Shown here: positions 7,658-20,158 of the stretch, piece after piece
How the letters are laid out: each line of letters begins with the position of its first letter
Numbering within the stretch: the stretch's first letter is position 1
NCBI GenBank assembly: GCA_026014585.1
Contig: JAOZIA010000010.1
Location: 1 to 64,000 of the forward strand
Source of the DNA: Candidatus Bathyarchaeota archaeon
Lineage (GTDB): Archaea > Thermoproteota > Bathyarchaeia > Bathyarchaeales > Bathycorpusculaceae
Direction: 5' to 3'
DNA length: 64,000 bases
Position numbers and translations under genes: made by a program
The notes under the pieces: generated by a model
What the model was told of the DNA's origin: nothing
Seen by the model: only the letters and a program-made list of their open reading frames with translations
The model's database searches: none

Positions 7658-7675
7658 CCGAAACGCTTATATTTA
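7658..7675 (+). promoter_or_regulatory. Archaeal promoter of the aromatic operon
   Basis: A purine-rich BRE-like CCGAAAC (7658-7664) is followed by the TATA element CTTATATTTA (7666-7675). Transcription should start about 25 bp downstream, near 7695-7700, which leaves only some 10-15 bases before the leader ORF ATG at 7710. The 348-bp gap between the Ig-like gene and lysC holds this promoter, the leader ORF and a hairpin; nothing was recognised in 7490-7655. Confidence 0.65.
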
Positions 7676-7709
7676 AAGGATAAAAACACATTGGCAGGTT
7701 CGAAGCTCA

Positions 7710-7787
7710 ATGTCAAATCTTAAAAACATCAAAACAGGCAACGCGTTTCTTAGCTTCGACTACTGCTTTTATTATTATTTTACTTAA
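7710..7787 (+). CDS. Putative aromatic leader peptide (25 aa)
   Basis: A short ORF starts ATG-TCA-AAT and ends TAA at 7785. Its C-terminal part reads FLSFDYCFYYYFT: eight of the last 13 codons are Phe or Tyr (positions 13, 16, 18, 20-24). It lies directly behind the predicted transcription start and directly before the operon for Phe/Tyr precursors, starting with aspartate kinase 50 bp downstream. This is what leader peptides of attenuated operons look like in bacteria (pheA, for example). Only a weak GGCAGG precedes its ATG, so it may be read nearly leaderless. Function as a regulatory leader is inferred. Confidence 0.6.
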   Translation: MSNLKNIKTGNAFLSFDYCFYYYFT

Positions 7788-7818
7788 GCCCAGGACTAAA
7801 GTAAAGAAAGTTCTGGGC
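7788..7818 (+). promoter_or_regulatory. Hairpin directly after the aromatic leader ORF
   Basis: GCCCAGGAC (7788-7796) can pair with GTTCTGGGC (7810-7818): nine pairs, one of them G-U, around a 13-base A-rich loop. It begins at the base after the leader stop codon. It is followed by six A and then the GGTG ribosome site of lysC. With no U-tract it is not a classical terminator. A ribosome paused on the Phe/Tyr codons would cover its 5' arm. A second inverted repeat, TCGAAGCT (7700-7707) with AGCTTCGA (7752-7759), lies inside the leader. Confidence 0.55.
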
Positions 7819-7837
7819 AAAAAAGGTGTGTGAAGAG

Positions 7838-9070
7838 ATGGCAAACAAAAAAATTGTTGTAAAATTTGGTGGTTCAAGCCTTGCAGATCATGAACGTTTA
7901 CTGAGAGCTGTAAAAGCCGTGGTTAATGAAACTCAAAAAGGCACAAAAATCGCCGTTGTAGTTTCCGCCATGGGCAAAACAACCGATGTACTAATGACCA
8001 CTGCAAAAAACACTTCAAATGGAAAACTGGAAAAGAAAGACTTAGACGACATCCTCTCCATGGGCGAACGGACAAGCGTGAGAATCTTTTCTGCAGCACT
8101 CAAAAACAATGGTGTGGACTCATGCTATTTTGACCCCGTTGACTGTAATTGGCCAATAATCTCTGATGACTCATTCCAAAACGCTAACCCGATACTTTCA
8201 GAATGCGAAAAAAACATCAAAGAAGCAGTCCTGCCTATAGTTGAAAGAGGTGTCGTTCCAGTAATTGCTGGGTTCCTTGGAAAAACCAAAGAGGGAAAAA
8301 CCACAACAATGGGCAGAGGCGGAAGTGACACAACAGCGTTTGTACTGGCAGAATCTTTAGGTGCAGACCAAGTTATCTTGGTAACTGACGCGGACGGCAT
8401 AATGTCAGGTGACCCCAAACTGATTAGTAAGCCTCAGCGACTTAAAGAAATAAACGTGTCATCACTTGTTGGCTTGGCAGATTCAGGCTCCAAGTTCATC
8501 CACAACAAAGCTTTAAAGTACAAACCTAAAAACATCGACGTTAAAGTTATGAACAGCGCGCACGGAGATTTAAGCAAGGAAGGCACCATAATTAAAGGAG
8601 GATTAGCAACGGAACTCGGCGTTGAAATAGCACACCCAAACCCAGTAGCAGAAATAACAGTAGTTGGAAAAGGCATCCCATCAAACCCAGAAATCGTAAT
8701 GGATATGATGCAAAAAGCCAAAGAGCACTCATCACTTCTGGGCATGTCAATGAACATGAACTCAGTCATACTCTACGTTGCCCAAGACCAAAGCTTAGAG
8801 CAGCTAGTAAATAGCATTCATCAGATAACAGTAGGCAACAAAGAAACCCTTGCTATGGCAGTTAAAAAGGACCTTGTGTTTTTGCAAACCAGCGGAGTTG
8901 GGCTGGAAGAAACACATGGAATTATCGGAAAAATCAGCGAGGAACTTCGCAAAAACAACATCAACATTTCGGGTATTTTAACCATAACTTCAAGTATTCT
9001 TCTTTTTGTAGACTGGAACGAACGAGAGAGAACTCTTACATTAGTAAAGGATGCATTAAAAGGTAAATGA
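7838..9070 (+). CDS. lysC: Aspartate kinase
   Basis: Phosphorylates aspartate to aspartyl phosphate. The amino acid kinase domain begins with VVKFGGSSL and contains GRGGSDTTA near residue 165. Two ACT domains follow (about 270-410), so feedback control by an amino acid is likely. I start it at ATG 7838, behind GGTG at 7825-7828; an in-frame GTG at 7826 would add four residues. At the head of the shikimate operon it probably supplies aspartate semialdehyde for ADTH synthase, the next gene, which overlaps it by four bases. Which amino acid binds the ACT domains is unknown. Confidence 0.95.
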   Translation: MANKKIVVKFGGSSLADHERLLRAVKAVVNETQKGTKIAVVVSAMGKTTDVLMTTAKNTSNGKLEKKDLDDILSMGERTSVRIFSAALKNNGVDSCYFDPVDCNWPIISDDSFQNANPILSECEKNIKEAVLPIVERGVVPVIAGFLGKTKEGKTTTMGRGGSDTTAFVLAESLGADQVILVTDADGIMSGDPKLISKPQRLKEINVSSLVGLADSGSKFIHNKALKYKPKNIDVKVMNSAHGDLSKEGTIIKGGLATELGVEIAHPNPVAEITVVGKGIPSNPEIVMDMMQKAKEHSSLLGMSMNMNSVILYVAQDQSLEQLVNSIHQITVGNKETLAMAVKKDLVFLQTSGVGLEETHGIIGKISEELRKNNINISGILTITSSILLFVDWNERERTLTLVKDALKGK

Positions 9071-17042: not shown

Positions 17043-17911
17043 GAATTGCGGTTATCGGCGCTGGAAAAATGGGCGTATGGTTCGCCAAGTTTTTTCAGAG
17101 CAGGGGCTACAGCGTAGTTCTCGCCGACCGCAAACAAGAAAAACTCGTTCCTCACCAAAATCAATCCTTTTCTTTAACAACCAACTTTTCTGAAGCCGTC
17201 AAAGACGCAGACCAAGTTCTGCTCTGTGTAGCCATTGACGCCATGGAAGAAGTCACCAAAACCATCAGCCCCGCCCTACACAAAGGACAAGTCGTCATGG
17301 ACGTGTGCTCTGTTAAGCAGACACCCGTAGAGGTTATGCACCGCTACATCAAAGACGCCACCGTATTAGGAACGCATCCCGTGTTTGGTCCCGGAAGCAA
17401 TGGCATAGCCCACAAAGCCTACATCCTAACCCCAACCAATTCTGAAGAAGAAAAATTCGCCTCCGAGTTCAAGGCGTGGCTGGAAAAAGAGGAAGCTCAC
17501 GTGTTTGTGATGTCTCCTAAAAAACATGATGAGCTCATCGCGGTTGTGTTGGGTTTGCCGCATTTTCTGGGTTTAGTTGCCTGCGAGACACTTTTGGAGC
17601 AGGAGACTTTGGCTGAAACCAAAAAGGTCTCGGGAACCACGTATCGCATGCTGTACACGCTGGCTGAGGCGACTGCGTTGGAGACGCCTGATTTGTTTGC
17701 GAGTTTGCAGACGAGCCTGCCTGAAGTGGACAAGGTTGAGGGCGTGTTTGTGGCTAAAGCTCAAGAATGGCTTGATTTGATAAAGCGCAAGGATTCTGCG
17801 GCAATCAAGGAGCGCATGGCACAACTTAACAAGAAACTCAAACAATCCGACAGCAACTTCACAGACTCCTACGAAGTAATGTATAAGATGCTGGAATCCA
17901 CAGAAAAATAA
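17039..17911 (+). CDS. tyrA: Prephenate dehydrogenase
   Basis: NAD(P)-dependent oxidative decarboxylation of prephenate to 4-hydroxyphenylpyruvate, the tyrosine branch. The N-terminal Rossmann motif is VIGAGKMGVWFAKFF, and the family signature LGTHPVFGPGSNG lies near residue 117. The C-terminal half is helical, for dimerisation. It overlaps the aminotransferase by four bases and ends the operon. No ACT domain is seen. Confidence 0.92.
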   Translation: MRIAVIGAGKMGVWFAKFFQSRGYSVVLADRKQEKLVPHQNQSFSLTTNFSEAVKDADQVLLCVAIDAMEEVTKTISPALHKGQVVMDVCSVKQTPVEVMHRYIKDATVLGTHPVFGPGSNGIAHKAYILTPTNSEEEKFASEFKAWLEKEEAHVFVMSPKKHDELIAVVLGLPHFLGLVACETLLEQETLAETKKVSGTTYRMLYTLAEATALETPDLFASLQTSLPEVDKVEGVFVAKAQEWLDLIKRKDSAAIKERMAQLNKKLKQSDSNFTDSYEVMYKMLESTEK

Positions 17912-18624: not shown

Positions 18625-20158
18625 ATGGGGTATTGCTTTATTCAACCGCTTCCCTAAAACCATAAAATTTTTAGACACCACCCTACGTGATGGTGAACAA
18701 ACTCCCGGAGTATCTCTTGTAGCTGAAAACAAACTGCGCATAGCCCAGCGGCTAGACGAGCTAGGCGTGGACGTGATTGAGGCAGGCTTTGCCGCGGTCA
18801 GCGAGGGCGAGCTTGAAGCAGTCAAACTCATCGCCAAACAGGGTCTTCGTGCTGAGGTTAGCAGTGCAGGCAGAGGCACCAAAGGCGACATTGACGCCGT
18901 AATCAAAAGCGAAGCCTCCACCATGAGCATGATTATACCCACCTCAGATTTGCACATAGAGGCTAAAATGCGCAAGACCCGTGAGCAAGTGCTCAAAGCC
19001 ACCGAAGACTGTGTTTCTTATGCAAAGGCGCATGGCTTAAAGGTGGAGCTTTTGGCTGAGGACGCCACCCGAAGCGATTTTGAGTATCTGACAAAGGTGT
19101 TTCAGACAGCGGAAGCCGCAGGAGTAGACCGAGTAACACCATGCGACACCGTAGGCATCCTAACTCCCGAAAAAACCGTCCAGTTCTTTGGCGACCTATC
19201 CAAGGCGCTTAAGGTTCCCATCGGCGTACACTGCCACAACGACTTTGGAATGGCCGTAGCAAATACAGTCATCGCATTGGGCAATGGCGCAACCGAAGCC
19301 CACGCAACAATCAACGGCTTAGGCGAACGCGCAGGCAACGCTGCGCTTGAGGAAATCGTGATTTCACTGCGTAGTCTCTACAAACTCGACCTAAACATCA
19401 AAACTGAACTCCTATACAGCACCAGCCAGCTGGTTCAACGTCTCTCAGGCGTGCATGTGCAACCCAACAAAGCCGTCGTGGGAGAGAACGCTTTCACGCA
19501 TGAATCGGGTATTCACACTCAGGGCGTCTTAGCTAACCCGCTCACTTACGAACCCATCGCGCCCGAGCTTGTCGGTGGAGTCCGCCGCATAGCGCCGGGC
19601 AAGCACAGTGGAACAAACGCCATCCGCAACGATCTCGCCAACATGGGATTGAACCCCAGTGAGGAACAGTTCAAAGAAATCTTCCAGCGCATCAAAGAGT
19701 TGGGTGACAAAGGCAAAGCCATAATGGATGCTGACGTGCTCGCAATCGCTGAAGCCGTTATGGGTTTGAGTTCTGAGAAGCCTATCTCGCTTGAGGAAAT
19801 GACGTTTGTGGGTGGCGACAAAGTAACGTCTACTGCTTCGGTTCGGCTGTGTCTTTACGGCAAGGACGTGTGGGGCACAGCAGTTGGAGTAGGACCCGTT
19901 GACGCTACAATAAATGCTGTCAAAAACGCCATATCCGAAGTTGAACCCATAGCCCTTGAGCAGTACAACGTCAAAGCCATCACAGGCGGAACTGATGCCA
20001 TGGTTGAGGTCATCGTTAAGGTACGCAAGGGAAGCAGAACCGTGACTGCTATGGGTGTTCGTGAGGACATTGTGAAAGCCAGCATTGAAGCGGTGCTTAG
20101 CGGCATGAACGTTTTGATGGTTGGCAACAGCAACGGTAATGGTAAACCCAAACACTAA
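18625..20158 (+). CDS. cimA: (R)-citramalate synthase, start region frameshifted
   Basis: Condenses pyruvate with acetyl-CoA to citramalate, the threonine-independent route to isoleucine. The catalytic FLDTTLRDGEQTPGVSL, HCHNDFG metal site and NGLGERAGNAALEE are present. DATRSD, CDTVGILTPEK and FGMAVANT resemble archaeal CimA rather than LeuA, and leuA is found at 29025. The essential N-terminus (from about 18656) has no ATG, GTG or TTG in frame. ATG 18625, behind GTGAT, encodes MGYCFIQPLP and meets UAA at 18655. A +1 shift at CCC-U would join it to KTIKFLDTT. It may be programmed recoding, a leader peptide, or a one-base sequence error. Confidence 0.8.

Follow-up and report, generated by a model that had tools for sequence, protein, structure and literature searches.

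A conserved Phe/Tyr-rich leader ORF with two flanking hairpins, a likely codon-reading regulator of the aromatic operon in Bathyarchaeia

The locus described here raises the question of whether a very short ORF, which follows an archaeal promoter and precedes the lysC-ADTH synthase-shikimate-tyrA operon, is translated as a sensor of phenylalanine and tyrosine supply. It lies in a 64,000-nucleotide stretch of a Candidatus Bathyarchaeota archaeon (contig JAOZIA010000010.1, positions 1 to 64,000), referred to below as the window. The features on which the argument rests are the following, with the basis of each in brackets.

7658-7665, + strand: BRE-like element, CCGAAACG (sequence).
7667-7674, + strand: TATA box, TTATATTT (sequence).
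About 7693-7698, + strand: predicted transcription start, upstream of the leader ATG (inferred from promoter spacing).
7693-7707 with 7752-7767, + strand: hairpin A (RNA folding and family conservation).
7710-7787, + strand: leader ORF, 25 codons, MSNLKNIKTGNAFLSFDYCFYYYFT and then a stop, proposed codon-reading sensor (frame conserved in relatives).
7755-7781, + strand: control-codon run F-D-Y-C-F-Y-Y-Y-F (codon counts across relatives).
7788-7818, + strand: hairpin B, GCCCAGGACT (7788-7797) with AGTTCTGGGC (7809-7818), its first base directly after the leader stop (RNA folding).
7825-7840, + strand: Shine-Dalgarno-like GGTG (7825-7828) and lysC start ATG (7838-7840) (sequence).
7838-9070, + strand: aspartate kinase of the lysC type, which opens the ADTH-type aromatic operon as its first structural gene (NCBIfam).

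A previous sequence-only reading of this region had reported an ORF of 25 codons with this translation and stop and with eight Phe or Tyr codons among its last 13, a BRE/TATA promoter ahead of it, a spacing of 50 bp to lysC and the identities of the operon genes, and from these it had proposed ribosome-mediated attenuation. All of these observations held. The eight aromatic residues are F13, F16, Y18, F20, Y21, Y22, Y23, and F24; the promoter is supported by its sequence and by family conservation, as the block CCGAAA-CTTATATTT is also present in relatives of the window's family; and 50 nt separate the leader stop from the lysC ATG. The gene identities agree with NCBIfam models, which recognized aspartate kinase, ADTH synthase, DHQ synthase II, aroD, and aroE, as well as archaeal shikimate kinase, aroA, aroC, chorismate mutase, an aminotransferase, and prephenate dehydrogenase, with the operon extending through tyrA to position 17911. 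A transcript starting downstream of 7710 would have refuted the proposal; the predicted start, inferred from promoter spacing, is upstream of the ATG. Hairpins A and B were absent from that reading and were found by RNA folding.

The most basic objection is that the ORF is not a leader at all, and that it encodes a small membrane peptide or one acting in trans, or that a U-rich terminator merely happens to read as an ORF. In its favor, a U-rich run readily yields Phe and Tyr codons, and the window taken alone gives 8 F/Y codons in the tail, where shuffles of its 39 nt lead one to expect 4.0 (p=0.003, for this one sequence). Orthologous lysC genes were collected from numerous genomes at the levels of genus, family, order, and class, and the DNA upstream of them was read. 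In f1, the family of the window, the leaders showed 8.2 F/Y/W per last 13 codons versus 3.1 in shuffled sequences, and the same tail read in other frames gave only 1.4-1.6 per 13 codons. This enrichment was detected in all eleven groups tested, f1 and ten further ones, at similar levels. Among 988 tail codons there were 153 TTT, 122 TTC, 217 TAT, and 83 TAC, together with no Ile ATT and a single TTA; given how common TTT and TAT are, the tail is thus not just U-richness. In addition, an alignment of 36 leaders showed that all indels inside the ORF are of whole codons. The sequence drifts between relatives, but the tail remains F/Y-rich. Significance within a family is overstated by the shuffle controls, because the relatives do not represent independent samples. 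The lack of ATT in 988 codons, the frame-specific enrichment, the whole-codon indels and the hairpin found at the stop in 70 of 73 leaders (below) contradict the objection, which we regard as all but excluded. The alignment in relatives that the sequence-only reading had suggested as a check was thus passed, with the ORF and its F/Y runs kept and drift elsewhere, and neither loss of the ORF nor frameshifts, which would have spoken against it, were found. Phe and Tyr codons of the tail also end preferentially in U (0.70 and 0.78, versus 0.45 and 0.42 in lysC; p ~1e-10 and 1e-18), a preference that may serve to slow decoding or to keep the RNA rich in U.

An equivalent ORF was found ahead of orthologous lysC in about 75 relatives, covering nine families of Bathyarchaeia and probably seven more groups. 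In families f1, f5, f6, f9, f12, f13, f14, f19, and f23, it precedes practically every lysC orthologue. These ORFs have about 20-42 codons and end in an F/Y-rich run, as in MSNCKSKKEDNASQLLSFDYYFYYYYFS (L002), MNSHSTTTLTNSSMFYSFSYFFYN (L035), MVNKGKEKLLSSTAYFKELNTFNPYYYYYYYCFF (L090), and MSDPASLRNFFAHEFFFYYNYF (L108). Outside the class and within the same phylum, seven groups likely carry the leader too (L181-L184, L187, L189-L197); no such leader was seen at L185, L186, and L188, also outside the class. Among public records, the orthologous operon is present in, for example, PLYI01000089.1, JAOZHX010000004.1, and CP070759.1, all of which bear the title Candidatus Bathyarchaeota. A tail with at least 6 F/Y/W within 240 nt upstream was present at 73 of 75 lysC orthologues and in only 2.5% of 2388 random windows; it was found in none of 31 regions upstream of trpE and in none of 7 upstream of paralogous lysC genes of the same organisms, where nothing similar was detected. 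Moreover, a covariance model built on f1 had a single match in 31 of 32 genomes from the genus, and this match invariably preceded lysC. The model recognized the leaders of f6 (G072, G081) too, which had not been used to build it, and one weak match lay elsewhere in a genome (G074, E=0.006). As there is one place per genome, always before lysC, the element is dedicated to the aromatic operon.

The RNA structure around the ORF is conserved as well. The 5' arm of hairpin A is the start of the predicted mRNA (GGCAG at 7693-7697 and TCGAAGCT at 7700-7707), and its 3' arm consists of the SFDY codons (AGCTTCGA at 7752-7759 and CTGCT at 7763-7767), so that the leader ATG is enclosed within it. Its core of 7 bp is kept in nearly all of the 36 f1 sequences, mostly via G-U changes. 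Hairpin B is kept in position, its stem starting within -3 to +5 nt of the leader stop in 70 of 73 distinct leaders, and its stem sequences are unrelated between families. RNAalifold recovered both hairpins unaided on f1, where 99.1% of cells were paired and the covariation score was 0.144, versus 0.110 in shuffled alignments (0/500) and 0.008-0.044 when the pairing was slid. Across 19 groups, the start region of the leader tended to pair with its F/Y or stop region (mean z -1.13, 17 negative).

The conservation of an SF[DEG]Y-x-FYY core in f1 might be taken to favor nascent-chain arrest, in which the aromatic peptide, on sensing free Phe or Tyr, would arrest the ribosome making it. However, F and Y vary freely in order, number, and spacing from family to family, with no invariant residue, and the conservation of the SFDY core is explained by its overlap with hairpin A. 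We thus consider this alternative very unlikely.

The gap between the leader stop and lysC measures 46-74 nt across leaders, and T-runs of at least five were found in it in 35 of 73 cases versus 6.4 expected; neither the window itself nor one clade of its genus has such a run. No conserved pair of terminator and antiterminator like the one in bacterial textbooks was found: pairing of the leader with the 5' arm of B had a mean z of -0.15 in f1, strong pairings with that arm were scattered in other families only (L096, L106, L079), and no antiterminator pairing was conserved across families. Pairing between the 3' arm of B and what lies downstream of it was weak (mean z -0.55 for 11 groups).

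Translation attenuation would rest on the same codon sensing, the position of the ribosome altering access to the lysC Shine-Dalgarno sequence and not transcription. Two observations support it: in group f32, outside the class, leader codons before the F/Y run complement the lysC Shine-Dalgarno (L191, AAAACCTCCT : AGGAGGTTTT), and in f12 its computed access drops from 0.57 with a stalled ribosome to 0.21 with the ribosome at the stop. Against it, computed access in f1 is equal in three states (0.40, 0.39, 0.41), and other families showed no consistent shift, again by computed folding only, so that we regard this output as unlikely. Shine-Dalgarno occlusion of the erm type was rejected for f1 on the lack of difference between ribosome states (computed folding only), and an RF2-type frameshift from the F/Y run into lysC was rejected because the frames after the tail are not consistently open.

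The ORF, the selection on its codons, both hairpins, their position, the single copy per genome, and the wide distribution are shown by these data. Since the reading frame and the RNA hairpins have been kept through evolution, the leader probably senses Phe/Tyr shortage, and it is almost certainly a translated sensor that reads Phe and Tyr codons. We assign a probability of roughly 0.8 to the model set out below, in which it regulates the aromatic operon; translation, stalling, termination, and polarity are inferred. Ribosome-mediated attenuation, as first proposed, is supported as the best reading of this anatomy, its output step and polarity remaining inferences. According to this model, the first ribosome would translate the leader behind the RNA polymerase. 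With charged Phe- or Tyr-tRNA scarce, it would slow or stall in the terminal F/Y run; with both plentiful, it would complete the leader, meet the stop codon, and depart. A ribosome on the F/Y run would open hairpin A, and one on the last codons or the stop would block hairpin B. The position of the ribosome would then set transcription through the 46-74-nt gap into lysC, more of it passing when Phe or Tyr is short.

How ribosome position is converted into expression is not shown, and transcription attenuation in the gap is the output that we favor by inference. In the favored version, slow decoding of the last F/Y codons would leave the ribosome covering the U-rich run or the 5' arm of B during the time that the polymerase spends within the gap, and termination would fail; otherwise, B would close or the U-rich run would be exposed, and the transcript would end. 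Closing of hairpin A behind the first ribosome may keep later ribosomes from overriding the decision. Two outputs thus remain possible, neither of them shown: termination at B or at a T-run, or FttA-dependent termination on the U-rich run, and both are inferred to yield the physiologically expected polarity. For the first one, a ribosome that stopped completely on the first F/Y codon would leave B free, and therefore, if B is the terminator, complete starvation would shut the operon off; the model then needs slow passage and not a complete stop, and it predicts that moderate limitation is more inducing than total starvation. Archaeal intrinsic termination is not known to require hairpins, which counts against the model.

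The second output, shielding from FttA (aCPSF1), is a possible sub-version of the main reading, in which the U-rich F/Y run would be the site of the termination factor and a ribosome held on it would hide that site, allowing readthrough. It would give the expected polarity without an antiterminator, and both the preference of the tail for U-ending codons and the single-stranded state of the F/Y run between two hairpins agree with it. The RNA preferred by FttA is U-rich and lies about 30-36 nt back from the 3' end (PMC11616081), and hence the polymerase would sit in the gap. However, F/Y codons are retained with less U in GC-rich relatives, the U-ending codons were perhaps chosen for slow decoding instead, and there are no FttA data for these archaea.

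Other short leader motifs with a distinctive sixth codon were observed in these genomes. Upstream of trpE, 32 of 34 sampled loci (L128-L137, L199-L222; G000:C23:106443 in the window's genome) carried the motif ATG-RGG-NAT-NNY-NTT-TGG or a near match to it; trpE is open in its +1 frame, often without an in-frame start codon for more than 100 codons. It is likely, as inferred from sequence alone, that trpE needs a +1 frameshift at the Trp codon, apparently an obligatory one. In layout, this motif is similar to the RF2 site, Trp taking the role of the slow codon; RF2 itself has been described (PMC5009743). The leuA-type gene of the window (2-isopropylmalate/citramalate synthase, 18625-20158) lies in the +1 frame of an upstream short ORF, ATG GGG TAT TGC TTT ATT CAA CCG CTT CCC TAA (MGYCFIQPLP and stop), with Ile as codon 6; the Ile motif with a +1 synthase was also found at L152, L154, L167, and L177, and G013 (L161, L168) has two extra MGYCFIQ start motifs with no intact synthase behind. 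About 150 nt upstream of hisG, a start motif with His as codon 6 was detected (MRDCVH..; in G000, MRDYIHTRRLRSLKAIQNRIA; loci L141, L143-L149, L153, L163), and since hisG is not in its +1 frame, the output must differ.

Some lysC genes show related arrangements. In f15 (L085-L088, L092, L094) and f10 (L091, L098-L105), lysC has a motif resembling the trpE type with Tyr/Phe codons, consisting of the modules GGTGATCATCTT-TTC and GGTGATGGCGTT-TAC (Phe and Tyr) or of MGGHLYWH, and lysC is extended in the +1 frame in most of them, which could represent a two-input sensor. In f18 and f21 (L109-L115, L120), short ORFs upstream of lysC have a conserved [VL]F-R-x-x-x-[VFI]Y, with AGGAGG/AGGGGG-like bases before the aromatic codons, and lysC has its own start. 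Both designs occur in one leader at L194 and L198, where GTG AGG GAT TGC CTT TTC (codon 6 Phe) is followed by a YSYYRY run.

The codon-6 motifs at trpE, hisG, and the leuA-type gene, together with the similar motif at lysC of f10 and f15, are independent cases that make codon-based sensing at lysC more credible. A bolder reading, for which the odds are in our judgment somewhat unfavorable, is that these archaea sense tRNA charging generally, without dedicated proteins, via hungry codons in short leaders of two architectures: the F/Y leader, acting on transcription via the archaeal termination machinery, and, where biosynthetic genes begin, +1 frameshifting of the RF2 kind on one Trp, Ile, Phe, or Tyr codon. 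If true, this would be the first transcription attenuation in archaea, by a route unused in bacteria.

Regarding precedents, no mechanism of transcription attenuation or antitermination was known in archaea as of 2021 (PMC8448881), and no later report appeared in the literature searched; the sequence-only reading knew of no established case for the ADTH-type aromatic operon in archaea. A review remarks briefly that attenuation by uORFs occurs in archaea as well, with no example in its text (PMC10219788). Neither archaeal leader-peptide attenuation nor a frameshifted trpE had a precedent in the literature searched, most subscription papers being outside the search. An Rfam search of the leader region gave no T-box or other family, only chance-level matches. 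T-box riboswitches, which also respond to tRNA charging and act in amino-acid operons, differ from the F/Y leader in that the latter is an ORF carrying a control-codon run. The trpE and leuA-type sites resemble the +1 programmed frameshifting of RF2 (prfB) in their Shine-Dalgarno-like bases, NTT, slow codon, and +1 gene. In tna-type attenuation, a stalled ribosome hides a Rho site, and by analogy, a held ribosome could hide an FttA site, although the signal would be hungry codons and not free tryptophan.

The closest likeness is to the bacterial attenuators pheL-pheA, trpL, and pheM-pheST, which likewise have a short first ORF in the transcript, end-product codons clustered near its end, hairpins around the stop, and a site just before the first structural gene. 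In contrast to them, the F/Y leader has an archaeal promoter and an operon of the ADTH route, its control codons run right up to the stop codon and the hairpin that follows, its first hairpin is formed between the 5' end of the mRNA and those codons, Phe and Tyr codons occur together in one leader, and there is no conserved antiterminator and no universal U-run. The element is thus a conserved, predicted case of attenuation in a major uncultured class, probably phylum-wide and at one operon per genome, and it would imply coupled transcription and translation as well as archaeal sensing of tRNA charging. Its logic is that of the bacterial attenuators, whereas the domain, the anatomy, and, likely, the termination machinery differ.
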